This document shows, one piece after another, positions 21,693 to 52,529 of a stretch of 64,000 nt of DNA. The translations under genes and the position numbers were made by a program. The stretch's first letter is position 1, and the number at the start of each line of letters is the position of its first letter. The stretch is from the NCBI RefSeq assembly GCF_014202755.1, contig NZ_JACHHK010000004.1:124001-188000 (forward strand), in the 5' to 3' direction. The stretch is from Catenisphaera adipataccumulans. GTDB lineage: Bacteria; Bacillota_I; Bacilli_A; Erysipelotrichales; Erysipelotrichaceae. Under the pieces are notes generated by a model. The model had not been told where the DNA came from. It ran no database searches and saw only the letters and a program-made list of their open reading frames with translations.

Positions 21693-22424
21693 ATGGGTAG
21701 ACATTTTGAAGTACGCGCGGCGTCGATGCAGAAGACTGCCAACGCCAAAGCGAAAGTATATTCTAGATATTCAAAGGAGATCCTGGTCGCCGCTAAGAAC
21801 GGCGATCCGGATCCGGACATGAACCAGGCTTTGAAAAAGGCCATCGAACGTGCAAAAGCAAACAATGTTCCGAATGACGTCATCAAAAGAGCCATTGATA
21901 AAGCAAAATCCAACACGAGCGAAAACTATTCCAGTGCCCGCTATGAAGGATTCGGCAACGGCGGCTCGACGATCATCATCGACTGTCTGACGGACAATCC
22001 GAACCGTACGATTGCTTATTTGAGAGCCTGCTTCAATAAGTCCCATGCAAAACTGGGCGTTTCCGGATCGGTTTCCTTCGGTTACGAGCATTTAGGCGTG
22101 ATCGTCATTCAGTACGATGACGAAGATGCGATGATGGAAGCGCTGTTGGATGCGGACATTGATTTGCATGATATTGAAGTCGAAGAAGGCTATATGACCA
22201 TTACTGTCGATCCGACACAGCTGGACGATGCCAAGAAGGTCATTGAAAAATTGATCCCGGATGTCAAATTTGAAGTCTTTGAAGATAAGATGGTTGCCAA
22301 TGACATGGTCAATCTGCAGGGAGAAGATCTGGAACTGTTCCAGCGTCTGGTCAAACTGCTGGATGATGTTGACGATGTGCAGCACGTATACCATAACGTA
22401 GAAAACATTAACGAAGCCGCTTAA
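21693..22424 (+). CDS. yebC: YebC/PmpR-family protein
   Basis: YebC/PmpR (TACO1-like) proteins were named as transcription regulators, and more recent work links members to translation of difficult sequences. The 243-residue protein matches the family along its length, with an N-terminal helical domain (ALKKAIERAKANNVPNDVIKRAIDKA) and the YEGFGNGGSTIIIDCLTDNPNRT core. The usual start MAGHSKW is replaced by MGRHFEVRAASMQKT, as in the YeeN-type subgroup. The last bases hold a possible promoter for the T-box leader. Confidence 0.9.
   Translation: MGRHFEVRAASMQKTANAKAKVYSRYSKEILVAAKNGDPDPDMNQALKKAIERAKANNVPNDVIKRAIDKAKSNTSENYSSARYEGFGNGGSTIIIDCLTDNPNRTIAYLRACFNKSHAKLGVSGSVSFGYEHLGVIVIQYDDEDAMMEALLDADIDLHDIEVEEGYMTITVDPTQLDDAKKVIEKLIPDVKFEVFEDKMVANDMVNLQGEDLELFQRLVKLLDDVDDVQHVYHNVENINEAA
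22369..22397 (+). promoter_or_regulatory. Possible promoter for the T-box/hisS-aspS unit, inside yebC
   Basis: TTGACG (22369-22374), a 17-bp spacer and CATAAC (22392-22397) lie in the 3' end of yebC. A start near 22404 would place the T-box leader at the transcript's 5' end. Confidence 0.4.
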
Positions 22425-22427
22425 TCC

Positions 22428-22632
22428 GTTGAAAAAGAGGGAACGCAGACCGAGCAGCACAGAGAGAAACAGGTTGGTGCGATGTTTCATGTGAGGATGC
22501 GCTCAGACACTTTGGAGGAGTCAGGTGTCCAAGCCTGACCGTTCGTCGCGTTAAGACGTCAAGCGTACAGAGCAATCTGTAAAATAAGGTGGTACCGCGT
22601 TTCAAACGTCCTTATAGAGGGCGTTTTTTTAT
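22428..22632 (+). promoter_or_regulatory. T-box leader of hisS-aspS
   Basis: This is a tRNA-sensing T-box riboswitch. Stem I shows the usual AGAGA...GGTTGGTGCGA features. The 3' side of the specifier region reads GACAC directly before TTTGGAG. The T-box antiterminator sequence AAGGTGGTACCGCG is at 22586-22599. A terminator pairs 22604-22611 with 22619-22626, followed by a T run. Uncharged tRNA should favour the antiterminator and read-through into hisS and aspS. The specifier can be read as GAC (Asp, 22506-22508) or CAC (His, 22508-22510), both of which match genes in the operon. Confidence 0.93.
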
Positions 22633-39218: not shown

Positions 39219-40403
39219 ATGAAATACGATTTTGATCAGGAAATTATCCGTAAAAATACCGATTCATTAAAATGGGATTCAGAAAATGCGAAACTGCCGA
39301 TGTGGGTAGCTGACATGGATTTTGAAGTTGCGCCATGCATCCGTAAAGCGCTTCAAAACCGCGTGAATGTCGGCGCATACGGCTACAGCTTGATCCCGGA
39401 TGGTTTTTATAAAACGATCCAGCGCTGGTGGCTGGAACGGCACGGTATCGGCTTTGATTCCGAGATGATGCAGTTCTGCATCGGCGTGCTGCCGGGCATC
39501 ACTTCGGCGATCCGTCGTTTTACTGCACCGGGCGAATCGATCTTGATCCAGTCACCCGTCTACCACATGTTTTATCATCTAGTCGAGCAGGCCGGCCGTC
39601 GTGTCGTGGAAAATCCGCTTCGGTATACCAATCATCAGTATGCGATCGATTTTGAGGATCTGGAAAGTAAATTAGCCCGTCCGGATGTGACAATGATGAT
39701 CTTATGCAACCCGCAGAATCCGACCGGAACCATCTGGGAAAGGGACGATCTTGCTAAGATCGGCGAGCTTTGCCAGCGTTATCATGTATTGGTGATCAGT
39801 GATGAGATCCACTGCGATATCGTGCAGCCAGGCTTCTCGTATATTCCGTTTGCGAAAGTCAACGAAACGTGCAAGAACAACAGTATCACGTTGGTCTCTG
39901 CCACCAAGGCTTTTAACATTGCCGGCATTGAGTCGGCATGTGCCATTGTTCCGGATCCGGCGATCCGCGAACGTTTTCAGCGGCAGGTACAGGTCGATGG
40001 TTTCTCACAGCCAAATTTCTTCTCTGCAGATGCATCGATCGCGGCATTTGAAGCGGGGGATGACTGGCTGGATCAGATGAATGCGTACGTGTTTGAAAAC
40101 AAGAAGACGGTCGTAGAATTCTGCCAGGAATCGCTGCCGAAACTGCACATCATTGATAGTCATGCGACCTATCTCCTGTGGGTTGATTGTTCGCAGATTA
40201 CGGATAATACCGATGATTTATGCGATCTGCTGCTGAAAAAATATGGATTGTATGTTTCCAAAGGAAGCGACTTCGGTGAAAACGGCCGACCGTTCTTCCG
40301 CATGAACATCGCCTGTCCGACACAGCAGGTCCTGGAATCGCTGCTTGCGCTGCGTAAAGGCCTGCAGGCATATAAGATCCGCAAAGCAGATTCGATCGAA
40401 TAA
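39219..40403 (+). CDS. patB: MalY/PatB-type PLP C-S lyase (aminotransferase fold)
   Basis: The 394-residue fold-type I PLP enzyme matches cystathionine beta-lyases of the MalY/PatB group, which split C-S bonds of cystathionine or cysteine to a keto acid, ammonia and a thiol. Diagnostic segments are LPMWVADMDFEVAP near the start, NPQNPTGTIW, ISDEIHCDIV and the PLP lysine in SATKAFNIAG. A transaminase activity is possible. It is a single gene with a shared terminator facing gltD. Confidence 0.85.
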   Translation: MKYDFDQEIIRKNTDSLKWDSENAKLPMWVADMDFEVAPCIRKALQNRVNVGAYGYSLIPDGFYKTIQRWWLERHGIGFDSEMMQFCIGVLPGITSAIRRFTAPGESILIQSPVYHMFYHLVEQAGRRVVENPLRYTNHQYAIDFEDLESKLARPDVTMMILCNPQNPTGTIWERDDLAKIGELCQRYHVLVISDEIHCDIVQPGFSYIPFAKVNETCKNNSITLVSATKAFNIAGIESACAIVPDPAIRERFQRQVQVDGFSQPNFFSADASIAAFEAGDDWLDQMNAYVFENKKTVVEFCQESLPKLHIIDSHATYLLWVDCSQITDNTDDLCDLLLKKYGLYVSKGSDFGENGRPFFRMNIACPTQQVLESLLALRKGLQAYKIRKADSIE

Positions 40404-40436
40404 AAAAATGCTCCGAAAATTCGGAGCATTTTTTTA
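40401..40436. terminator. Bidirectional terminator between the C-S lyase and gltD
   Basis: AAATGCTCCGA (40406-40416) pairs with TCGGAGCATTT (40421-40431), with A and T tracts on both sides. It ends both the rightward lyase gene and the leftward nitrogen operon. Confidence 0.9.
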
Positions 40437-41888
40437 TAGATTTGTATAACCCATCAACCAGCGGTCGATTGCTTTGGCAGCTTCTTTGCCTTCATGGATC
40501 GCCCAGACGACCAACGACTGGCCGCGGCGGGCATCGCCGGCCGCAAAGACTTGTTCATCAGCGGTTTGATACTGATGGGTGACAATGGTATTGCGCGGTG
40601 TGGTTTCCAGCTGGAAAGCCTTCTGAACATAATCCTCAATGCCGACAAAACCAGCCGCGATCAGCAGCAGATCGCATGGCAGGGTCTGTTCGCTGCCGGC
40701 TACTTCCTGCAGCTTGCCGTCTTTGAAGCCGACTTTCACGGTCTTGACCGCTGTCAGCTGATTGTCTTTGGAAATAAATTCCTTGATCGTGGTTTCATAA
40801 ATGCGCGGATCTTTGCCGAATCGGAAAATGCTTTCCTGCTGGCCGTAGTCGGTCTTGCAGACTTTCGGCCACTCTGGCCAAGGATTGTCGGCTGCCCGGG
40901 TGTCCGGGGCTTTCGGCATCATTTCCAGCTGCGTCACGGACGCACAGCCTTGGCGGATCGCAGTGCCGGTGCAGTCGTTGCCGGTATCGCCGCCGCCGAC
41001 AATGATGACATTTTTATCTTTGGCATTGATATAGTCGGTATCATCCAGCAGATGTTTGGTCATCTGGGTGAGATAATCGACCGCAAAGTAGATGCCGCGG
41101 ATGTTGCGGTTTTTGGCATTTAGATCACGGGCTTTTTTCGAACCGGTGCAGAGCAGAATAACATCGTAGTCTTTTTTCAGCTGTTTTTCGGAAAGATCTT
41201 GTCCGACATTGACGTTGGTTTTAAATTCTACGCCTTCTGCTTCCAGGATCTCGATCCGGCGCTTGATGTATTTTTTATTCAATTTCATGTTCGGAATTCC
41301 GTACATCAGCAGACCGCCCGGCCGGTTTTCGCGTTCAAAGACCGTGACGTGATGACCGCGTTGATTTAAATCATGCGCAGCTGCCAGTCCGGAAGGACCG
41401 GAACCAATGATCGCAATGCGCTTGTCGGTATGGATCTGCGGCAGGACTGGTTTGACCCAGCCGTTGGCATAAGCCGTCTCGATGATGAACAGTTCATCAT
41501 CATGAATGGTCACGGATTGACCGTCATAACCGTTCAGGCAGGCTTTCTCGCACAGGGCAGGGCACACCCGGCCGGTGAATTCCGGATACGGGTTGGTCTT
41601 GCTTAAACGTTCATATGCTTCTTTCAAGTGATTTTTATAGATCGCATCGTTCCATTCCGGCACAAGATTGTGCAGCGGACAGCCGGTGACCATGCGGTTT
41701 AGTTCCAGTGCGGACTGACAGAACGGTACCCCGCAGTTCATACAGCGGGCCGCTTGTTTTCTCCGCTCTTCCGCATCATGCGGAAGTTTAAATTCTTCAA
41801 AATCCTGAATACGATCGGAAGGCGACTTCCATGTGTTTTCATTGCGTTCATATTCTAAGAATCCGGTAGGTTTTCCCATGTCTGTCAC
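40434..41888 (-). CDS. gltD: Glutamate synthase (NADPH), small subunit
   Basis: GltD is the FAD and NADPH subunit that feeds electrons to GltB for glutamate formation. The 484-residue protein has the N-terminal cysteine-rich iron-sulfur region ([22 protein letters not shown]), a FAD-binding [10 protein letters not shown] motif and the NADPH-binding GGGDTGNDC motif. It is the last gene of a four-gene leftward operon, 3 bp after gltB. Confidence 0.95.
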
Positions 41889-41891
41889 CTC

Positions 41892-44800
41892 CTAATGGTA
41901 TTTGGCGCGGAATGCTTTCAGACGCGCCTCATCCGGTGTATATCCTTTGTCTTCCAATTCTTTGATGGCATTGTTCATCATCTCATAATCACGCGGGACG
42001 ATCTTTTTGAAGTTCGCAAGATTGTTTTCGAAATCCGCCAGGATCCGTTCAGCGATCGCCGATCCAGTTGCCTGATAATGGTTATCCAGCAATTCTTGTA
42101 CTTTTTCTTTATCTTTCTTCGATTGGACAGCTTCCATCTTCACCAGGGATTTATTCAAATGCAGATACAAATCATGATCTTTATCCCAGACATATGCAAT
42201 GCCGCCGGACATGCCGGATGCAAAGTTTTTACCGGTCTTGCCTAAGATCATCGCAATACCGCCGGTCATGTATTCCAGACCGTGATCGCCGCAGCCTTCT
42301 GCGACTGCGACCGCACCGGAATTCCGGACGCAGAAGCGTTCGCCGGCAATGCCGCGGATATATGCCGTACCGCCGGTCGCCCCGAACAAGGCGACGTTGC
42401 CGACGATCACATTTTCCTCGGCTTTGAAGATCGAGTTTTTCGGCGGATATAAGATCAGTTTGCCGCCGGACAGACCTTTGCCGAAATAATCATTGGCATC
42501 CCCGGCAACTTCCAGGGTAATGCCTTTCGGCAGGAAGGCACCGAATGACTGGCCGGCGCCGCCTTGGCAATGCACCGTAAAGGTATCATCATCAAATGTT
42601 TTGCCGGACTGTGTGACGACGCTGCCCAAGATCGTACCCAGTGTCCGGTTGGTACTGGAGATCTTGATGGACGTTTCTTTTTTCTGATTCTTCTGGATCG
42701 CTTTTTCAAAAGTTGGCAGCAGGATCTTTTCATCGATGGTCTTTTCCAGATGGAAATCATATGGTTTCTCAAAATGAACCGGTGCCGGCGTGCGTAAAAT
42801 GGCTTGATAATTCAGCATATTCTGACGCGGTAAATTCGAGTCGCGCACTTCCAGACAGTCGGTGTGACCGACCATTTCGGCTAAGGTCTTGAAGCCAAGT
42901 TTTGCCATGATCTCACGCACTTCTTCGGCAATAAACAACATAAAGTTTTCGACGTATTCTGGTTTGCCTTTGAAGCGTTTGCGAAGAGTTTCATTTTGAG
43001 TCGCAATGCCGAACGGGCATGTATCCTTGTTGCAGACACGCATCATCCTGCAGCCCATGGAGATCAGCGGTGCGGTCGCAAAGCCGAATTCTTCGGCTCC
43101 CAGCAATGCGGCAATCGCCACATCACGGCCGGTCATTAATTTACCGTCCGTTTCCAGACGGACTCGATCGCGCAGGCCTTCCTGCACCAGCGCTTGATGC
43201 GTCTGGGAAAGACCCAGCTCCCACGGCAGACCGGCATTGTGGATGCTGCTGAGCGGGGCAGCACCGGTACCGCCGTCATAGCCGGAAATCAGAATGACGG
43301 TCGCGCCGGCTTTGGCAACACCGCAGGCAACCGTACCAACGCCGTTTTCACTGACTAATTTAACTGAAATATCGGCAGCGCGGTTGGCATTCTTTAGATC
43401 GTAGATCAGCTGAGCCAGATCTTCGATCGAATAGATATCGTGATGCGGCGGCGGGGAGATCAATGTGACGCCCGGCGTCGAGTATCTTGTTTTTGCGACC
43501 CACGGATAAACTTTCTGTCCCGGCAGATGGCCGCCTTCGCCTGGCTTAGCGCCTTGTGCCATTTTGATCTGGATCTCTTTGGCGCTGACTAAATATTCAC
43601 TGGTTACACCGAAACGGCCGCTGGCGACCTGTTTGATGGCACTGTTTTTGATCGTGCCGAATCGTTCTGGTTTTTCGCCGCCTTCACCGGTGTTGGATTT
43701 ACCGCCTAATGTATTCATCGCGATCGCCATGCAGGTATGGGCTTCTTCAGAGATCGATCCATATGACATGGCACCGGTCTTGAAACGTTTGACGATTTCA
43801 CTGGCCGGTTCGACTTCTTCGATCGGGATCGGTTTGCGTTTGGATACAAATTCAAAGTTGCTTCGCAGCGTGTGCGGATGGTCTTTGTCATTGACCAGGG
43901 CCGAGTATTCTTTGAACGCCTGATAGTCGCCGTTCTGTGTTGCTTTCTGCAGCGTGACGATGGTTTTCGGATCATATAAGTGGTCTTCTTTATCTTCGCC
44001 GCTGCGCAGCTTGTGGAAGCCGATCGAATCTAAGGTTTCGTCGGTATTTAATCCCAACGGATCAAATGCTTTATTGTGATGATATTCCAGATCTTCTTCG
44101 ATTTCTTTTAAGCCGATGCCGCCGACTTCATTGACCGTACCGGTAAAGTACTCATCGACCACATCCTGCGCCAGACCGATCGCTTCGAAGATCTGCGCAG
44201 ACTGATAGGACTGCAGCGTGGAGATGCCCATTTTCGAGGCAATCTTAACGATGCCTTCCAGGATCGCGCGGTTGTAGTCTTCGATGGCCTTGCTTGGTTC
44301 CTCATCGAGCATGTCTTTGTCAATCATTTCTTCGATGCATTCATGGGCCAGATATGGATAGATGGCGGAAGCACCGTAGCCTAACAGGCAGGCAAATTGA
44401 TGAACTGTGCGCGGTTCTCCGGATTCCAAAACGATGGAAATCGCAGTCTTCTTCTTCGTGCGGACAAAATACTGTTCGACAGCGGAAACAGCCAACAGGC
44501 TCGGGATGGCCATGTGGTTTTCATCAACGCCGCGGTCTGAAAGGATCAAGATCGAACAGCCACGATGATAGGCACGTTCACATTCGATGAACAAATGATC
44601 CAGTGCATCTTTCAGCGGCATGCCGCGGTAAAAGAGCAGGGAAACCGTCGCATTTTTAAAACCGTCCTGATCCAGTTTGCGGATCTTGTCCATATCCCGT
44701 GCATCCAGGATCGGATTGGTGATTTCCAGCATACGGCAGTTTTCGGCTTCTTCCTGCAGAACGTTGCCGGCTGCACCTAAATATACGGTCGTATCGGTGA

Positions 44801-46364
44801 CAACTTCTTCCCGTAGGCTGTCCATCGGCGGGTTGGTGACCTGCGCAAATAATTGTTTGAAATAATTGTCCAGGGTCGGGTGCTGCTTGGATAAAACGGC
44901 CAGCGGCACATCGACGCCCATCGCACCGATCGGTTCTTTTTTCTGCTGGACCATCGGCACGATCGAATCCATGACATCTTCATACGTATAGGCAAAGGCT
45001 TTGTATAAGCGGTTGCGTTCTTCCTGCGTGTACATCCGGGTCTTGCGGTCCGGGGCATCTAATTTATTGAGATGCAGCAGATATTGGTCCAGCCATTCGC
45101 CGTATGGGTTCTGATGGGCAAATTCTGCTTTCAGTTCTTCATTCGGGATCAGCTTTTTCTGCTTGAGATCGACCAGCAGCATCTGTCCCGGTTTCAGGCG
45201 GTCTTTGCGTAAGATATCTTCATTGCGGATATCGAGCACGCCGACTTCGCTGGCTAAGATCAGCTGATTTTGTTTCGTAATATAGTAGCGGCACGGGCGC
45301 AGTCCGTTGCGGTCCAATACCGCGCCGGCATAATCACCGTCACTGTACAGAATGGCGGCCGGGCCGTCCCATGGTTCCATGACCGTCGCATAATAATGAT
45401 AAAAGTCTTTTAACGACTGCGGCATCGGAACTTGTTTCCAAGGTTCCGGAATGGTGATCATGACCGCTTTGGCCAGATCCATGCCGTTCATGACCATGAA
45501 TTCCAGCGTATTATCCAGCATGGCGCTGTCAGAACCCGAGTTATTTAAAGCCGGCAGGATACTGTCCTTGTATTTGTCCATAAACGGACTGTACATACTT
45601 TCTTCCCGGGCCAGCATTCGTTTATAGTTGCCGCGGATCGTGTTGATTTCGCCGTTGTGGGCAATAAAACGATTCGGATGGGCCCTTGACCAGGATGGTG
45701 TCGTATTGGTCGAGAAACGGGAATGCACGATGGCAATGGCAGATTGATAGTTTGGGTCCTGCAGATCCGGATAAAAAGAGCGCAGCTGATTGACCAGGAA
45801 CATGCCTTTATAGACAATGGTCCGGCACGATAAGCTGGCCACATACGTTTTTGGCGAACTTTTTTCAAATTCCCGGCGGATCACATACAAATAACGGTCA
45901 AAATCCAAATCGGATTTCATTTCTTCCGGCCGGTCAATGAAGACTTGTTCAATGTACGGCATGCAGTCGCGGGCTTTTTCACCGAGGATCTCGGGATGGC
46001 ATTCAACCTTCCGCCAGCCTAAGATCTTCGCTCCATGGGTCTCGGCAATCGTGGTAAAGGTCCGTTTCGATAAGTTGCGTGCTAAATAGTCTTGTTCAAA
46101 GAAAAACATGCCGACGCCGTAGCCGCGTTCTTTGGTCAAAGGAAAGGGAACTTTCTTGGCAAAGAAGGAATGGGAAATCTGAAGTAAGATTCCCACGCCG
46201 TCGCCGACTTTTCCGGTGGCATCTTTTCCGGCCCGGTGATCGAGCCGTTCTACAATTTGAAGCGCCTGATTGACAACTTGGTGGCTTTTCTTGCCGTCCA
46301 TGTTGACGATCATACCGATGCCGCAGGCATCGTGTTCGCGCTGTTGGGGGAATGAATTCTGCAT
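41892..46364 (-). CDS. gltB: Glutamate synthase, large subunit
   Basis: GltB transfers the amide of glutamine to 2-oxoglutarate, giving two glutamates. The 1490-residue protein has a class II amidotransferase domain whose N-terminal Cys is residue 14 (HDACGIGM) after a short propeptide. The central domain, FMN domain (GAKPGEGGHLPGQKV, SGYDGGTGAAP) and 3Fe-4S cysteines (CRMMRVCNKDTCPFG) follow, then the C-terminal GXGXG beta-helix (GDANDYFGKGLSGG). It is 9 bp after asnB and 3 bp before gltD. Confidence 0.97.
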   Translation of the reverse strand: MQNSFPQQREHDACGIGMIVNMDGKKSHQVVNQALQIVERLDHRAGKDATGKVGDGVGILLQISHSFFAKKVPFPLTKERGYGVGMFFFEQDYLARNLSKRTFTTIAETHGAKILGWRKVECHPEILGEKARDCMPYIEQVFIDRPEEMKSDLDFDRYLYVIRREFEKSSPKTYVASLSCRTIVYKGMFLVNQLRSFYPDLQDPNYQSAIAIVHSRFSTNTTPSWSRAHPNRFIAHNGEINTIRGNYKRMLAREESMYSPFMDKYKDSILPALNNSGSDSAMLDNTLEFMVMNGMDLAKAVMITIPEPWKQVPMPQSLKDFYHYYATVMEPWDGPAAILYSDGDYAGAVLDRNGLRPCRYYITKQNQLILASEVGVLDIRNEDILRKDRLKPGQMLLVDLKQKKLIPNEELKAEFAHQNPYGEWLDQYLLHLNKLDAPDRKTRMYTQEERNRLYKAFAYTYEDVMDSIVPMVQQKKEPIGAMGVDVPLAVLSKQHPTLDNYFKQLFAQVTNPPMDSLREEVVTDTTVYLGAAGNVLQEEAENCRMLEITNPILDARDMDKIRKLDQDGFKNATVSLLFYRGMPLKDALDHLFIECERAYHRGCSILILSDRGVDENHMAIPSLLAVSAVEQYFVRTKKKTAISIVLESGEPRTVHQFACLLGYGASAIYPYLAHECIEEMIDKDMLDEEPSKAIEDYNRAILEGIVKIASKMGISTLQSYQSAQIFEAIGLAQDVVDEYFTGTVNEVGGIGLKEIEEDLEYHHNKAFDPLGLNTDETLDSIGFHKLRSGEDKEDHLYDPKTIVTLQKATQNGDYQAFKEYSALVNDKDHPHTLRSNFEFVSKRKPIPIEEVEPASEIVKRFKTGAMSYGSISEEAHTCMAIAMNTLGGKSNTGEGGEKPERFGTIKNSAIKQVASGRFGVTSEYLVSAKEIQIKMAQGAKPGEGGHLPGQKVYPWVAKTRYSTPGVTLISPPPHHDIYSIEDLAQLIYDLKNANRAADISVKLVSENGVGTVACGVAKAGATVILISGYDGGTGAAPLSSIHNAGLPWELGLSQTHQALVQEGLRDRVRLETDGKLMTGRDVAIAALLGAEEFGFATAPLISMGCRMMRVCNKDTCPFGIATQNETLRKRFKGKPEYVENFMLFIAEEVREIMAKLGFKTLAEMVGHTDCLEVRDSNLPRQNMLNYQAILRTPAPVHFEKPYDFHLEKTIDEKILLPTFEKAIQKNQKKETSIKISSTNRTLGTILGSVVTQSGKTFDDDTFTVHCQGGAGQSFGAFLPKGITLEVAGDANDYFGKGLSGGKLILYPPKNSIFKAEENVIVGNVALFGATGGTAYIRGIAGERFCVRNSGAVAVAEGCGDHGLEYMTGGIAMILGKTGKNFASGMSGGIAYVWDKDHDLYLHLNKSLVKMEAVQSKKDKEKVQELLDNHYQATGSAIAERILADFENNLANFKKIVPRDYEMMNNAIKELEDKGYTPDEARLKAFRAKYH

Positions 46365-46373
46365 ATTGAACCT

Positions 46374-47957
46374 CTACTTTCCACTGTCTCCGTAATTGGA
46401 TAATACCCGTGCGGATGGGTCGTTGACGTTGCATCCAGGCCAGGTTTTGTTCGGCATCCAGAAATCAACGATCATATCGCCCTGTCCAGGGTAGTATTTT
46501 TCAAATATTTCACGATACAATAAGGATTCTTTACTGATGGGCGGCACATGGGTGTATTGTTTCCGCTTGGTTTCGAATTCCTCATCGCTGTAGCATGTCT
46601 CCGCATAATCGCAGAGATCATCTTTCAGAGAATGTCCTACCGCATCCGAGAAGGCGGCTTTTTCCCGCATCAGAATGCTTTCCGGCAGGATCTTGTCGGC
46701 TTCAAATGCATGCCGGAGCAAGTACTTGCCTTTGCCGTACGTGTTCATTTTCATGGCCGGATCGATGGACATGACATACTGCACAAAATCCAGATCGCCG
46801 AACGGCACGCGGGCTTCCATTGAATGGCTGGCAATGCAGCGGTCGGCACGCAGCACATCGTACATATACAATTCGCGGATGCGCTTTTCGCTTTCGGTCT
46901 GGAACTCTTCCGGGCTCGGTGCGAAATCGGTGTATTTATAGCCGAATAATTCATCGCTGATCTCACCGGTCAGCAGTACGCGGATGTCGGTGTGCTCGTG
47001 GATGTATTTGCAGACCAGATACATCCCGATGGATGCCCGGATGGTCGTGATGTCAAAGGTGCCCAGCGCATAAATGACCGGTTCTAAGGCTTGGATGACA
47101 TCGTCTTTCGTGATGATGACTTCGGTGTGGTCGCTGTGAATATAATCGGCAACTTGCCGTGCGTATTTTAAATCGATGGCATCGATGTCCATACCGATGG
47201 CGAAAGTGCGGATCGGTTTGTTCAGCAATTTTTGTGAAATCGCGCAGACCAGACTGGAGTCCAAACCGCCGGACAGCAGGAAGCCAAGCGGCGCATCGGA
47301 ATCCAGACGTTTTTCAACACCGGCTGTCAGTTTGTCATGGATCTTACGGCAGGTAGTTTCTAAATCATCATGGGATACGGCTTTGACTTTGGTCATGTCG
47401 CGGTAGCAGGTGAATTCTCCGTTTTTATAGTAATATCCCGGAGGGAAAGGCAGAATTCTTTGAACAAGACCACTTAGGTTTTTGGCTTCGGAAGCAAAGA
47501 CGATGGCACCGTCTTTGTCATAGCCATAGAACAAGGGGCGGATGCCGATCGGATCGCGGGCGGCAATGATCGTATCGTTTTTTTCATCATACATCACCAT
47601 CGCGAATTCGGCATCCATTTTTGCGAAAATCGCACATCCTTCTTGTTCATACCAGGGAATCAGAATTTCGCAGTCACTGTCACTTTGGAAACTATATCCC
47701 TGTTTTTCTAAGCGCTCTTTAATAGGGCGAAATCCGTAGATTTCGCCGTTACAAACCAGATGAATACCATTTCGCTCAAAGGGCTGCATGCCTTCCGGCG
47801 TCAGGCCCATGATCGACAGGCGCTGAAACGCCATCTTTCCATTTGTCAGATCGATGATCCGGGTGTCGTCCGGACCGCGGGTTATAGTCGGAGCCAGCGC
47901 TTTCTGAACTTGATCGGCAGTCACTCCTTTTTTAAAGTAAGCAAATATGGTACACAT
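46374..47957 (-). CDS. asnB: Asparagine synthetase B (glutamine-hydrolysing)
   Basis: AsnB makes asparagine from aspartate, glutamine and ATP. The 527-residue protein has the N-terminal nucleophile Cys2 (MCTIFAY), the amidotransferase motifs RGPDDTR and CNGEIYG, and the pyrophosphate loop SGGLDSSLVCA of the synthetase domain. It is the second gene of the GSIII-AsnB-GltB-GltD operon, so one leader would control glutamine, asparagine and glutamate production together. Confidence 0.95.
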   Translation of the reverse strand: MCTIFAYFKKGVTADQVQKALAPTITRGPDDTRIIDLTNGKMAFQRLSIMGLTPEGMQPFERNGIHLVCNGEIYGFRPIKERLEKQGYSFQSDSDCEILIPWYEQEGCAIFAKMDAEFAMVMYDEKNDTIIAARDPIGIRPLFYGYDKDGAIVFASEAKNLSGLVQRILPFPPGYYYKNGEFTCYRDMTKVKAVSHDDLETTCRKIHDKLTAGVEKRLDSDAPLGFLLSGGLDSSLVCAISQKLLNKPIRTFAIGMDIDAIDLKYARQVADYIHSDHTEVIITKDDVIQALEPVIYALGTFDITTIRASIGMYLVCKYIHEHTDIRVLLTGEISDELFGYKYTDFAPSPEEFQTESEKRIRELYMYDVLRADRCIASHSMEARVPFGDLDFVQYVMSIDPAMKMNTYGKGKYLLRHAFEADKILPESILMREKAAFSDAVGHSLKDDLCDYAETCYSDEEFETKRKQYTHVPPISKESLLYREIFEKYYPGQGDMIVDFWMPNKTWPGCNVNDPSARVLSNYGDSGK

Positions 47958-47978: not shown

Positions 47979-50069
47979 TTAAATGATACCGAATAACAGC
48001 TTGCCGTAAGTTGGGAACGGCCAGATCTCATCGTCGCAGATTTCTTCCAGCTTGTCACACGGTGCCCGCAGGGCATCCATGGCCGGCAGGATCTCGTCGC
48101 GCACATAATAGGCAGCCTTGTCGAATTCGGTGATGCTATGCAGCGTTTTGATCTTTTCATCCAAGGTGCTGCAGGCAGTCATCGCTTCGGTTAAATAGGC
48201 AGAAATTTCTTTGACGTTGGCTTCTTCATATTCGGTTTCAATTCCTAATTCTTTCTTCGATAGTGCCGTTTCGGTCAAGGTCTTGGAGTAACCCATGACG
48301 GCCGGCATGATTTGTTTGCGGGCCATATTGACCATTGTCAGCGCTTCGATGTTCACGATCTTGGTGTATTCTTCCATCGTGATTTCATAACGTGAACGGG
48401 CTTCTTCTTCACTTAAGACACCTTGACGTTTGAACAATGCGATGTTTTCCGGTTTGATGGAATACGGCAGGGCATCCGGGGTCGTGCGTAAATTCAGCAA
48501 GCCGCGTTTTTCGGCTTCTGCGATCCAGGAATCGTCGTAGCCGTTGCCGTTGAAGATGATGCGTTTGTGTTCCTTGATCGTTGTTTTGATCAGCTGATGC
48601 AGGGCATCTTCAAAGTTTTCCGCGCCTTCGAGCTGGTCGGCAAATCCTTCCAGAACATCCGCAACAGCCGTATTCAGCATGATGTTGCAGCCAGCGATGG
48701 AATTGGAGCTGCCAAGCATACGGAACTCAAATTTATTGCCGGTAAACGCAAACGGCGAAGTACGGTTGCGGTCCGTCGCATCTTTCTTGATCTTCGGCAG
48801 GATATCGACGCCGATCCGCATGACTTCTGTACCGCTTTCTTCGATCGGTTCATCGTTTTCGATTGCCTTCAATACTTCGGTCAGCTGTTCGCCTAAGAAG
48901 ATCGAAATGATGGCCGGCGGGGCTTCGTTGGCGCCCAAACGGTGATCGTTGGCAGCGGTAGCAACGCTTAACCGCAGAATATCCTGATGTTCATCGACAG
49001 CTTTGATGACGGCAGCCAGGAACAATAAGAACTGGGCGTTGTCCTGCGGGGTATTGCCTGGATCCAGCAGGTTGATGCCGGTATTGGTGGAGATGGACCA
49101 GTTGTTATGTTTACCGGAACCGTTGATACCGTCAAACGGTTTTTCATGCAGCAGCGCGACCAATCCATGTTCTTTGGCAATGCGCTGGATCATTTCCATG
49201 GTCAGCTGGTTGTGATCGTTGGCAATGTTGGTGGTGGAGAAGACCGGAGCCAGCTCAAACTGTGCCGGGGCAACTTCGTTGTGCTCCGTTTTTGCTTCAA
49301 TACCCAGTTTCCATAACTGGCGGTTCAGGTCCTGCATAAATTCCTGCACACGGTCTTTGATCGTTCCGAAGTAATGATCTTCCATTTCCTGACCTTTCGG
49401 GCACGGTGCACCAAATAAAGTACGGCCGGTGTAGATCAGGTCTTTACGCTGTTCGTAATATTTTTTGTCGACCAGGAAATATTCCTGTTCCGGTCCGACG
49501 GTCGTCTTGACCGATGTCACTTCGTCATGTCCAAATAAACGCAGCACGCGCAGTGCCTGTTTATTGATGGCGTCCATACTGCGCAGCAGCGGAATTTTTT
49601 TATCCAGTGCATGGCCGGTATAGGAATAGAAGGCCGTCGGGATACAGAGGACTTTGTTTTTGATAAATACAAAGCTGGTCGGATCCCAGGCAGTGTAGCC
49701 GCGGGCTTCAAAAGTGGCGCGTAATCCGCCGCTTGGGAAACTGGACGCATCCGGTTCGCCGCGGACCAATTCTTTGCCGGAAAATTCCATGTCGATGCTG
49801 CCGTTCTTACCTATATTCAAGAAACTATCGTGTTTCTCGGCCGTGACGCCGGTCAGCGGCTGGAACCAGTGGGTAAAGTGTGTCGCGCCGTTTTCCAATG
49901 CCCATTCTTTCATGGCGTGAGCAACGGCTTCGGCAATTTTTGGATTCAATGGTTTGCCTTCCTGAATGGTTTTTTCCAGTTCACGGAAGGTATCTTTGGC
50001 CAGGTAGTCTTTCATTTTTTTCTCGTCGAAGACTTGACAGCCGAAGATTTCTTTAATGTCGGTTTTCAT
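47979..50069 (-). CDS. glnN: Glutamine synthetase type III
   Basis: GSIII joins ammonia and glutamate with ATP. The 696-residue protein is far larger than type I enzymes and has the GSIII sequence FPSGGLRATFEARGYTAWDP, TVGPEQEYFLVD, EVAPAQFELAPVF, HEKPFDGINGSGKHNNWS and RNRTSPFAFTGNKFEFR. The start ATG 50069 is at a good distance from AGGGAGG; another in-frame ATG two codons upstream abuts that site, and a longer frame opens at 50162 within the leader. It heads the nitrogen operon. Confidence 0.96.
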   Translation of the reverse strand: MKTDIKEIFGCQVFDEKKMKDYLAKDTFRELEKTIQEGKPLNPKIAEAVAHAMKEWALENGATHFTHWFQPLTGVTAEKHDSFLNIGKNGSIDMEFSGKELVRGEPDASSFPSGGLRATFEARGYTAWDPTSFVFIKNKVLCIPTAFYSYTGHALDKKIPLLRSMDAINKQALRVLRLFGHDEVTSVKTTVGPEQEYFLVDKKYYEQRKDLIYTGRTLFGAPCPKGQEMEDHYFGTIKDRVQEFMQDLNRQLWKLGIEAKTEHNEVAPAQFELAPVFSTTNIANDHNQLTMEMIQRIAKEHGLVALLHEKPFDGINGSGKHNNWSISTNTGINLLDPGNTPQDNAQFLLFLAAVIKAVDEHQDILRLSVATAANDHRLGANEAPPAIISIFLGEQLTEVLKAIENDEPIEESGTEVMRIGVDILPKIKKDATDRNRTSPFAFTGNKFEFRMLGSSNSIAGCNIMLNTAVADVLEGFADQLEGAENFEDALHQLIKTTIKEHKRIIFNGNGYDDSWIAEAEKRGLLNLRTTPDALPYSIKPENIALFKRQGVLSEEEARSRYEITMEEYTKIVNIEALTMVNMARKQIMPAVMGYSKTLTETALSKKELGIETEYEEANVKEISAYLTEAMTACSTLDEKIKTLHSITEFDKAAYYVRDEILPAMDALRAPCDKLEEICDDEIWPFPTYGKLLFGII

Positions 50070-50088: not shown

Positions 50089-50160
50089 TAAAAAAAGGCA
50101 AAGATACAAAAAAATTCAGCAGATGAACTGCTTCCTTCTTTTGGCATCTTTGCCTTTTTC
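50089..50160 (-). promoter_or_regulatory. Leader attenuator of the glnN-asnB-gltB-gltD operon
   Basis: On the leftward transcript, the 5' arm (50146-50159) pairs over 14 bases with the 3' arm (50092-50105), followed by a U run, forming an intrinsic terminator before glnN. Between the arms is a hairpin AGCAG/CTGCT (50118-50132). The 5' arm can instead fold into GGC-AAAGAU-GCC (50143-50154), whose six-base loop has A at position 1 and G at position 4, as in loops bound by ANTAR regulators. A second matching loop was not found. An ANTAR protein gene lies 1.4 kb away. Confidence 0.75.
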
Positions 50161-50168
50161 ATACTCCC

Positions 50169-50196
50169 ATTGTAGTATTTTTCACGAGATTGTCAA
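50169..50196 (-). promoter_or_regulatory. Promoter of the nitrogen operon
   Basis: On the minus strand a perfect TTGACA (50191-50196), a 16-bp spacer and TACAAT (50169-50174) predict a start near 50162, at the very beginning of the attenuator. Confidence 0.75.
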
Positions 50197-50253: not shown

Positions 50254-50282
50254 TTTGCATCCGCGCCGACTTTCGATATAAT
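50254..50282 (+). promoter_or_regulatory. Promoter for the short glutamine synthetase operon
   Basis: TTTGCA (50254-50259), a 17-bp spacer and a perfect TATAAT (50277-50282). The resulting leader is too short for an attenuator. Confidence 0.6.
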
Positions 50283-50302: not shown

Positions 50303-51472
50303 ATGTACTCTGAACAAGATGTATTTGATTTTATAGAAGAAGAAGACGTCCGTTTTATTCGTCTTTCTTATTTTGATGTATTCGGCCATCAAAAAAATGT
50401 TTCCATTCAGCCTAGCGTGATGGAACGGGCATTCAAGGAAGGGATCCTGATCGACGGCAGTGCGATCGCCGGATTTGAACCGATCGAAAAGAGCGATTTA
50501 TTTTTAAGGCCGGATCCGAATACATTAGCGATCCTGCCGTGGCGTTCTTTTGACGGTTCGGTCATTCGTCTGTACTGTGATATCTACGATGCCGACGGCA
50601 ATCTTTACCAAAATAATACGCGGTATTTATTAAAGCAAGTGATCGATGAAGCAAGACACCTGCAGGTACCGATCCAGATCCGCAGTGAATTTGAGTTTTA
50701 TTTATTCCAGCTGGATGAAAATGGGGAACCGACGAAAAAGCCTTTGGACCATGCCGGATATATGGATATTGCTCCGGAAGACATGGGGGAAGATATTCGC
50801 CGGCAGATCTGCGGTTATTTAAGTGAGATGGGCGTAGAGCCGATGGCCAGCCATCATGAAGAAGGGCCGGGCCAAAATGAAATTGACTTTCAGTTCAATG
50901 AGCCTTTGGCTTCTGCCGACAGCTGTGCCACTTTCCGCTGGGTCGTAAAGGCGACTGCCCAGTCGATGGGTCTATATGCCGATTTTTCTCCAAAACCGAT
51001 TCCGGATGCACCGGGCAGCGGCACGCACATTCACATTCAAGTCGATCCGCTGGAACCATTTTTAGCCGGCATTCTGGATCACATTCGCGAATTGACGTTG
51101 TTTTTAAATCCGACCGCGGCTTCATACGATCGGTTAGGGGAACATAAAGCACCAAAGTATGTCACATGGGATTATGCGAACCGTTCGCAGCTGGTGCGCA
51201 TTCCGGCGGGTTCCCGTCAGATCGAGCTGCGTTCGCCGGATGGGTATGCCAATTCTTATCTGGCTTATACGTTGTTGATCTATGCCGGTCTGGACGGTGT
51301 GCGCCGCGGACTGGAATTGATGCCGAACTGCGATGAAAATTTATGCGGCCGGCTGATGACTTGTGAAGAATTACCGGCGTCTTTCAAAGCGGCAAAGGAA
51401 ATTGCCGCCAAGAGTGAATGGATCCGTCACTATGTTCCGGCAGGCATATTAGAGGCTTATTTAGAACGATGA
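50303..51472 (+). CDS. glnA: Short type I glutamine synthetase
   Basis: The 389-residue protein has a GSI layout: beta-grasp N-domain (DGSAIAGFEP), metal-binding EFEFYLF, HHEEGPGQNEID and GSGTHIHIQ, ATP and glutamate-binding NRSQLVRIP and RQIELRSPDGYANSYLAY. Bacterial GSI is normally about 440 to 470 residues; the reduction is in the C-terminal region, and the adenylylation segment is absent. The main catalytic residues appear kept, so it may be active, or it may sense glutamine. It overlaps the ANTAR regulator gene by ATGA, and a GS-regulator pair of this kind is known in some clostridia, as I recall. Confidence 0.88.
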   Translation: MYSEQDVFDFIEEEDVRFIRLSYFDVFGHQKNVSIQPSVMERAFKEGILIDGSAIAGFEPIEKSDLFLRPDPNTLAILPWRSFDGSVIRLYCDIYDADGNLYQNNTRYLLKQVIDEARHLQVPIQIRSEFEFYLFQLDENGEPTKKPLDHAGYMDIAPEDMGEDIRRQICGYLSEMGVEPMASHHEEGPGQNEIDFQFNEPLASADSCATFRWVVKATAQSMGLYADFSPKPIPDAPGSGTHIHIQVDPLEPFLAGILDHIRELTLFLNPTAASYDRLGEHKAPKYVTWDYANRSQLVRIPAGSRQIELRSPDGYANSYLAYTLLIYAGLDGVRRGLELMPNCDENLCGRLMTCEELPASFKAAKEIAAKSEWIRHYVPAGILEAYLER

Positions 51473-52047
51473 AAGAAACGAAAAAGGTCATTGTCGTCTC
51501 CCGCAGCAATGATACTTTGAAGGTCATGAAAGAGGTCTTGCCTGCTCATCAATTTCAGATCATCCATTCGTTTGCGACGATCGCAGATACGAAAAAGGCG
51601 CTGCGTTCACGGCACTGCGACTTGTTGATCGTACAGGCACCGCTGAAGGATGAGCAGGGGGTCCGCGCCTGTCTGCAGATCAAGAATGCGTTGCCGATCG
51701 AGATCTTGTTGTTGGTGAAAGCGGATATCTATGATCAGGTCTTGTATCAGTGCGATGATTCCGGGATCTGCGTGCTGTCGCTGCCTTGTAAGAAAAGCAT
51801 GGTCTATCAGTCGTGTTCATTGTTGATGATGCTGGCGGCACAGAAAAGAAAATACGAAGCTGAAATTGCCCGTCTAAAACAAAAGATGCAGAATGAAAAG
51901 GTCATCAATCGGGCCAAGCTGGTTCTGATCGAGGATTATCATTGGACCGAAGATCAGGCGCATAAATATATTGAACATGCTGCAATGGATACTTCGAAGA
52001 CAAAGTTTGAAATTGCCCGGGATATATTAGAGGGGGTCACAAAGTGA
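51469..52047 (+). CDS. ANTAR-domain RNA-binding antiterminator with pseudo-receiver
   Basis: The 192-residue protein has an N-terminal receiver-like domain (1-120), a coiled linker (125-145) and a C-terminal ANTAR helix bundle (about 145-188; INRAKLVLIEDYHWTEDQAHKYIEHAAM). ANTAR proteins bind paired RNA hairpins and prevent termination. The receiver lacks the phosphoacceptor: DLLIVQAPL has Gln56 where Asp is expected, and the acidic pair is missing, so control is probably not by phosphorylation. The start ATG 51469 overlaps the glnA stop. The obvious target is the attenuator before glnN. Confidence 0.87.
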   Translation: MKETKKVIVVSRSNDTLKVMKEVLPAHQFQIIHSFATIADTKKALRSRHCDLLIVQAPLKDEQGVRACLQIKNALPIEILLLVKADIYDQVLYQCDDSGICVLSLPCKKSMVYQSCSLLMMLAAQKRKYEAEIARLKQKMQNEKVINRAKLVLIEDYHWTEDQAHKYIEHAAMDTSKTKFEIARDILEGVTK

Positions 52048-52529
52048 AACAGGTAAAAACCAATGCGATGCGTCTGCTGGATGAAGCCGGCATTGAGTAT
52101 ACAGCGCATTCGTATACACATAAGCACAATGATCCGGTGGACGGCATCAGCGTTGCTGAAAAAATGGGACAGCCGCTGGAACAAGTCTACAAAACATTGG
52201 TGACACAAACGCATGATAACGAATATGTGGTCTTCATGCTGCCGGTGGCGGAGGAACTGGATCTGAAAAAATGTGCCCGCGCTGCCGGAACGAAAAGTTT
52301 GGAAATGATCCATGTGAAAGATATTCATAAAATTACCGGTTATATCCGGGGCGGCTGTTCGCCGCTGGGCATGAAAAAAGATTATCGGACATTTATCGAT
52401 GAAAATGTCATTTTACAAGATCGGATTTATTTCAGCGGCGGCAAGATCGGAGTTCAGATCGAGATGGATCCGGAAGATCTGATCCGCTTCCGTCACATTG
52501 AAACAGCCGATCTGATCAAGGAGAAATGA
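52044..52529 (+). CDS. ybaK: YbaK/EbsC-family aminoacyl-tRNA deacylase
   Basis: YbaK-type proteins hydrolyse mischarged Cys-tRNA(Pro). The 161-residue protein starts at GTG 52044, overlapping the ANTAR gene stop (GTGA), behind AGGGGG. The signature TGYIRGGCSPLGMKK holds the catalytic Lys region of the family. Its link to the nitrogen regulator is by operon position only. Confidence 0.88.
   Translation: MKQVKTNAMRLLDEAGIEYTAHSYTHKHNDPVDGISVAEKMGQPLEQVYKTLVTQTHDNEYVVFMLPVAEELDLKKCARAAGTKSLEMIHVKDIHKITGYIRGGCSPLGMKKDYRTFIDENVILQDRIYFSGGKIGVQIEMDPEDLIRFRHIETADLIKEK

Follow-up and report, generated by a model that had tools for sequence, protein, structure and literature searches.

A predicted single-hexaloop ANTAR-type attenuator at the head of the glnN-asnB-gltB-gltD operon of Catenisphaera adipataccumulans

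The window, a 64,000-nucleotide stretch of the Catenisphaera adipataccumulans genome, carries on its minus strand four nitrogen assimilation genes in a row: glnN (glutamine synthetase type III, 47979..50069; Pfam GSIII_N and Gln-synt_C), asnB (asparagine synthase, 46374..47957; Asn_synthase and GATase_7), gltB (glutamate synthase large subunit, 41892..46364; Glu_synthase, GATase_2 and GXGXG) and gltD (small subunit, 40434..41879, named from sequence and position). A bidirectional terminator at 40400..40437 ends the operon, consistent with the four-gene unit proposed in a sequence-only reading of this DNA. Divergently, on the plus strand, a promoter at 50254..50282 opens onto a leader of about 20 nt that holds no attenuator, followed by glnA (glutamine synthetase type I, 50303..51472; Gln-synt_C and Gln-synt_N) and by the gene of a NitR-like ANTAR regulator (51469..52047), whose start overlaps the glnA stop codon (ATGA). 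The same reading had placed an ANTAR regulator 1.4 kb from the glnN leader on the opposite strand; it lies there, 1.3-1.4 kb away, and its gene is the only ANTAR gene in the genome. The pair glnA-ANTAR is kept in most relatives. A gene with an aminoacyl-tRNA editing domain (52044-52529, plus strand) overlaps the end of the ANTAR gene, and elsewhere in the window there is a T-box leader (22420-22616, plus strand; RF00230, 101 bits). Outside the window, the genome has a second GSIII gene (L003, G000:C4:202972-205041, minus strand), 55% identical, which has no hexaloop leader; the two glnN copies are therefore probably under different control.

The operon has a sigma-70 promoter at 50169..50196 on the minus strand (TTGACA-16-TACAAT, 11/12 consensus matches; -35 at 50196-50191, -10 at 50174-50169), found at an identical position in every aligned relative. 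The 12-nt ANTAR-type hairpin GGC[AAAGAU]GCC (50143..50154, minus strand), the proposed antiterminator, starts 14 nt past the -10 box, a few bases from the predicted start; its stem is 50154-50152/50145-50143 and its loop 50151-50146, with A1 at 50151 and G4 at 50148. An intrinsic terminator that excludes this hairpin spans 50090..50159 on the same strand: all 14 positions of its 5′ arm AAAAAGGCAAAGAU (50159-50146) pair with the 3′ arm AUCUUUGCCUUUUU (50105-50092), and the U-tract lies at 50096-50090. The hairpin's loop and 5′ arm are shared with the 5′ arm of the terminator. Both the 14-bp stem formed from the first bases of the transcript and the refolding of its 5′ arm around the loop AAAGAU had been noticed earlier, and both are present in the sequence. 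Inside the terminator sits a further hairpin, AGCAG/CUGCU (50132-50118, minus strand), which was ruled out as a second ANTAR loop on its five-base loop, UUCAU. At the predicted start of transcription there is an ATG in frame with glnN, and reading from it adds 31 codons that cross the attenuator (50162-50070, minus strand).

The leader folds with a minimum free energy of -36.9 kcal/mol, against -22.8 ± 3.4 kcal/mol in shuffled sequences (z -4.2; 0/200 shuffles). Folded up to the U-tract, the terminator reaches -34.7 kcal/mol and the leader with the hairpin enforced -14.3, so that the two states are mutually exclusive and the terminator is favoured unless the hairpin is held. When both strands of the window were scanned for an A1/G4 hexaloop re-paired by a downstream arm and followed by a U-run, the glnN leader was the sole match without mismatch or G-U. 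The sequence supports an attenuator at this position; the mechanism that we propose for it is supported by comparison.

We searched 245 genomes of the family for glnN orthologues. The hexaloop AANGNN on a GC..GY stem occurs in 22/22 orthologues of at least 66% identity, a count taken from raw leaders of which none was discarded. The leaders L005, L025 and L031, in which the pairing of the terminator arms is shifted, carry the hexaloop as well. The hairpin comes right after the promoter in 19/22 of these orthologues and about 100 nt further downstream in the other three, all of one genus (L018, L019 and L020). In that genus the attenuator follows a short conserved ORF, starting MND(E/G)GD and sitting directly past the promoter, which could be a leader peptide or an extra control. 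More distant glnN genes of ANTAR-bearing genomes also have the hairpin, as AGC[AAAGGC]GCU and similar forms, and it is missing from all six glnN leaders examined from genomes that lack an ANTAR protein.

The stem covaries, as the sequence-only reading had suggested checking: over 44 elements, including those at other genes, the covariation score of the hairpin is 0.309 against 0.186 ± 0.020 (0/500 shuffles), and slid registers come nowhere near it. In a set of 24 glnN leaders, GC makes up 18 of the third pairs and AU 5, and the second pair is GC in 22 and GU in 2. Across the 44 elements, the closing pair is always CG; the second is GC in 38 and GU in 6, the third GC in 23, AU in 18 and GU in 2, and the fourth AU in 15, CG in 8, UA in 2 and UG in 2. 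Loop bases 3, 5 and 6 vary together with compensating partners in the terminator arm (AU/UA/GC/CG), whereas positions 1, 2 and 4 are fixed. A1, A2 and G4 are invariant although the terminator does not need them, and since the patterns used to pick leaders required A2, G4 and the closing GC..GY, the invariance of these bases is meaningful only in the 22 unfiltered leaders.

The known dual-hairpin targets have two hexaloop hairpins joined by a short linker, and here we find one. The uncertainty of the sequence-only reading over a second hairpin was well placed: none turned up on searching, in this leader or convincingly in 46 glnN leaders that include Clostridia and Spirochaetes. In none of the 46 does a loop of the form RC[ANNGNN]GY, even on a 2-bp stem, lie between the hairpin and the U-tract; the single upstream match, in L255, overlaps the -10 region, and a looser 3-bp scan found one other A1/G4 loop, inside the terminator stem of L233. 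The terminator does overlap the hairpin that is present, and G4 is sequestered in the terminator fold in 44/46 leaders, with the terminator favoured by a median of 13.7 kcal/mol.

The strongest alternative is an ordinary dual target whose other hexaloop, upstream or downstream, was missed for its weak stem or unusual loop. It has precedent: the ANTAR antitermination targets in the literature have two hairpins (PMC3369931, PMC8164766), and in two other families of the same class the glnA leaders of G583 and G293 appear to be genuine dual targets. However, the loop test that came up empty in the 46 leaders recovers both loops in these two controls, and the hairpin core begins 9-16 nt past the -10 box throughout, which leaves no room for a second hexaloop upstream. 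We consider a missed second loop improbable. The suggestion that recognition might not follow the known mode was borne out in this respect, as one hexaloop and not two. Tandem hexaloop hairpins were observed at some glnN genes (L228, L236 and L250) and amtB genes (L137, L142, L146 and L188); such leaders hold two single-hexaloop attenuators one after the other, and where checked by eye each seems to have a terminator to itself.

The element follows the regulator across the family. A model of promoter plus hairpin (R1; matches at E 0.0015 or better) hit 36/245 genomes: 33 of the 55 with a genuine ANTAR domain and 3 of the 190 without (Fisher p 8e-23). Relatedness of the genomes inflates this value, and some of the R1 training sequences had been picked from ANTAR-bearing genomes. 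The three exceptions are assemblies 66-78% complete; 22 ANTAR-bearing genomes of the family give no match at the strict cut-off, some of them having displaced or weaker elements. Another model (R3), built without either sequence of the genome itself, places the window leader at the top of the 2-Mb genome, with 44.1 bits and E 4.8e-5. An amtB leader comes second at E 0.009; there CAAGC[AAAGGU]GCUUUC precedes a terminator of its own. The match after that has E 0.6. R3 also matches most clostridial glnN leaders tested. Low-scoring matches of R1 and R2, near E 0.01-1, were rejected: they have no terminator or lie upstream of unrelated genes. The second predicted target in the genome is at G000:C5:94107-95868 (minus strand, L151/L152), an amtB frame whose far end matches a P-II domain, apparently an AmtB-GlnB fusion under the same kind of one-hairpin attenuator.

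In relatives, the unit of promoter, hairpin and terminator precedes amtB, gdhA, gltB, carA, purC, pyrG, ilvE and a gene for a probable amino-acid transporter. Pfam named the ammonium transporter, the carbamoyl-phosphate synthase small chain, the SAICAR synthetase and the glutamate dehydrogenase; protein sequence alone served to name pyrG, ilvE, the transporter and gltB, which here is the amidotransferase gene of glutamate synthase that runs divergently from glnN. These positions support a predicted regulon of nitrogen or glutamine-using functions. Many Clostridia also have a copy of the element for the gene that diverges from glnN, on the minus strand and 100-150 nt from the glnN element (L226, L229, L230, L232, L237, L250 and others). 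Taken with the covariation and the co-occurrence in 245 genomes, the regulon supports the ANTAR-linked attenuation of a nitrogen operon put forward in the sequence-only reading.

The attenuator could be real but under another control, whether by a ligand-binding RNA, by a BglG/LicT-type antiterminator or through translation of a leader peptide. The design of a terminator with an alternative hairpin is generic, and a BglG-type cis element can be scored in the leader, far under threshold (19.9 bits against 80). On the other hand, neither this leader nor those of six relatives matches any Rfam family at its threshold; the hairpin has only 12 nt, with an invariant A1, A2 and G4 that the terminator would not call for; and the presence of the element tracks the ANTAR gene. 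Translation of a leader peptide from the ATG at 50162 was rejected, given that this ATG is not conserved in relatives and that glnN has a good ribosome-binding site. We regard a different controller as quite unlikely. mRNA can be stabilised by 5′ hairpins, and the stem sequence does double as a terminator arm, but a hairpin that is merely a stabiliser or a by-product of a strong terminator, with no regulator, is very hard to reconcile with outer pairs that covary, with A1, A2 and G4 fixed while other loop bases vary, with the absence of the element where ANTAR is missing and with its recurrence at unrelated nitrogen genes.

The ANTAR domain of the regulator (PF03861) scores 56.0 bits against a curated cut-off of 27.3, and the AlphaFold model (pLDDT 94.9) has the order receiver, coiled coil and ANTAR with the three-helix ANTAR fold; the best PDB matches are Rv1626, RNA-bound EutV (TM 0.80), EutV and AmiR. 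The receiver is a pseudo-receiver lacking the phospho-acceptor Asp: Gln56 aligns with EutV Asp54, and relatives have Gln, Asn or Asp at this position. The family does not require a phospho-acceptor Asp, as AmiR has none. Across 24 relatives, K150, L153, E161, A164, H165, M173 and A183 are invariant; M173 corresponds to EutV Met172 and H165 to EutV Tyr164, the residue that stacks on G4 in EutV (PMC8934654). His at the G4-stacking position is shared with AmiR.

We hypothesize that the leader is a single-hexaloop variant of NitR/ANTAR antitermination acting as the attenuator of the glnN-asnB-gltB-gltD operon, a reading to which we give a probability of about 0.8. The controller would be the product of the ANTAR gene that follows glnA, either an orthologue of NitR or a protein closely related to it. 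RNA polymerase would initiate a few bases upstream and make the one hairpin; if active NitR is absent, the loop and 5′ arm would re-pair with the 3′ arm and transcription would stop. Under nitrogen limitation, NitR would bind the hexaloop through A1, G4 and the closing C-G/G-C pairs and hold the hairpin, and polymerase would read into the four genes. Because there is a single hexaloop only, recruitment and antitermination would both take place on one hairpin. The start site, the binding, the antitermination and the nitrogen signal are what we infer, and by this reading the regulator needs no kinase. GlnA or another partner may relay the nitrogen signal to the pseudo-receiver, in the way that AmiC acts on AmiR; since glnA is the constant neighbour of the ANTAR gene, one may reasonably guess, but only guess, that glutamine synthetase controls the regulator directly.

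In Clostridium saccharobutylicum, the ANTAR gene nitR adjoins glnA. The locus described here likewise pairs an ANTAR regulator of nitrogen assimilation with glnA, and has predicted targets (glnN, amtB, gdhA and gltB) that fit a NitR regulon; unlike there, glnN is the first controlled gene and the glnA-ANTAR unit has no attenuator of its own. As summarised in a later paper, C. saccharobutylicum NitR induces the GS/GOGAT genes by antitermination under nitrogen limitation (PMC6316151, citing Stutz et al. 2007). With Pseudomonas aeruginosa AmiR-AmiC, our system shares a pseudo-receiver ANTAR protein and the loop-stacking His, and control by a partner protein is plausible by analogy, although the partner there is AmiC and the conserved neighbour here is glutamine synthetase I; the amiE leader has been modelled as a dual hairpin (PMC3369931). 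Enterococcus faecalis EutV offers the A1/G4 hexaloop with its C-G closing pair, the terminator overlapping the hairpin and the same protein architecture, but it is phosphorylated at Asp54 and requires both P1 and P2, spaced by a linker of 5-12 nt, in contrast to the one hexaloop found here (PMC3369931, PMC8934654). As EutV needs both, a single hairpin might bind without antiterminating. At any one time EutV binds a single hexaloop; the authors of its structure asked why both hairpins are needed if the dimer binds one, anticipated single hexaloops in settings free of the polymerase time limit and called for single-hexaloop bioinformatics (PMC8934654).

Within the freely readable literature considered, the regulator and its purpose are already known (NitR); the one-hairpin architecture is new. 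Published searches for ANTAR targets took a dual stem-loop as the definition (PMC3369931, PMC8164766), and single hexaloops would therefore not have been catalogued. It seems somewhat probable that single-hexaloop ANTAR attenuators at the very 5′ end of transcripts form a large overlooked class in Erysipelotrichaceae, many Clostridia and some Spirochaetes, and that one NitR dimer on one hairpin suffices, in which case the two-step model of a recruitment and an antitermination hairpin would not be general. Dozens of one-hexaloop terminators and apparently true dual glnA leaders occur in the same class, so the need for a second hairpin is open to direct experiment. The element also predicts a nitrogen regulon of common gut Bacillota.
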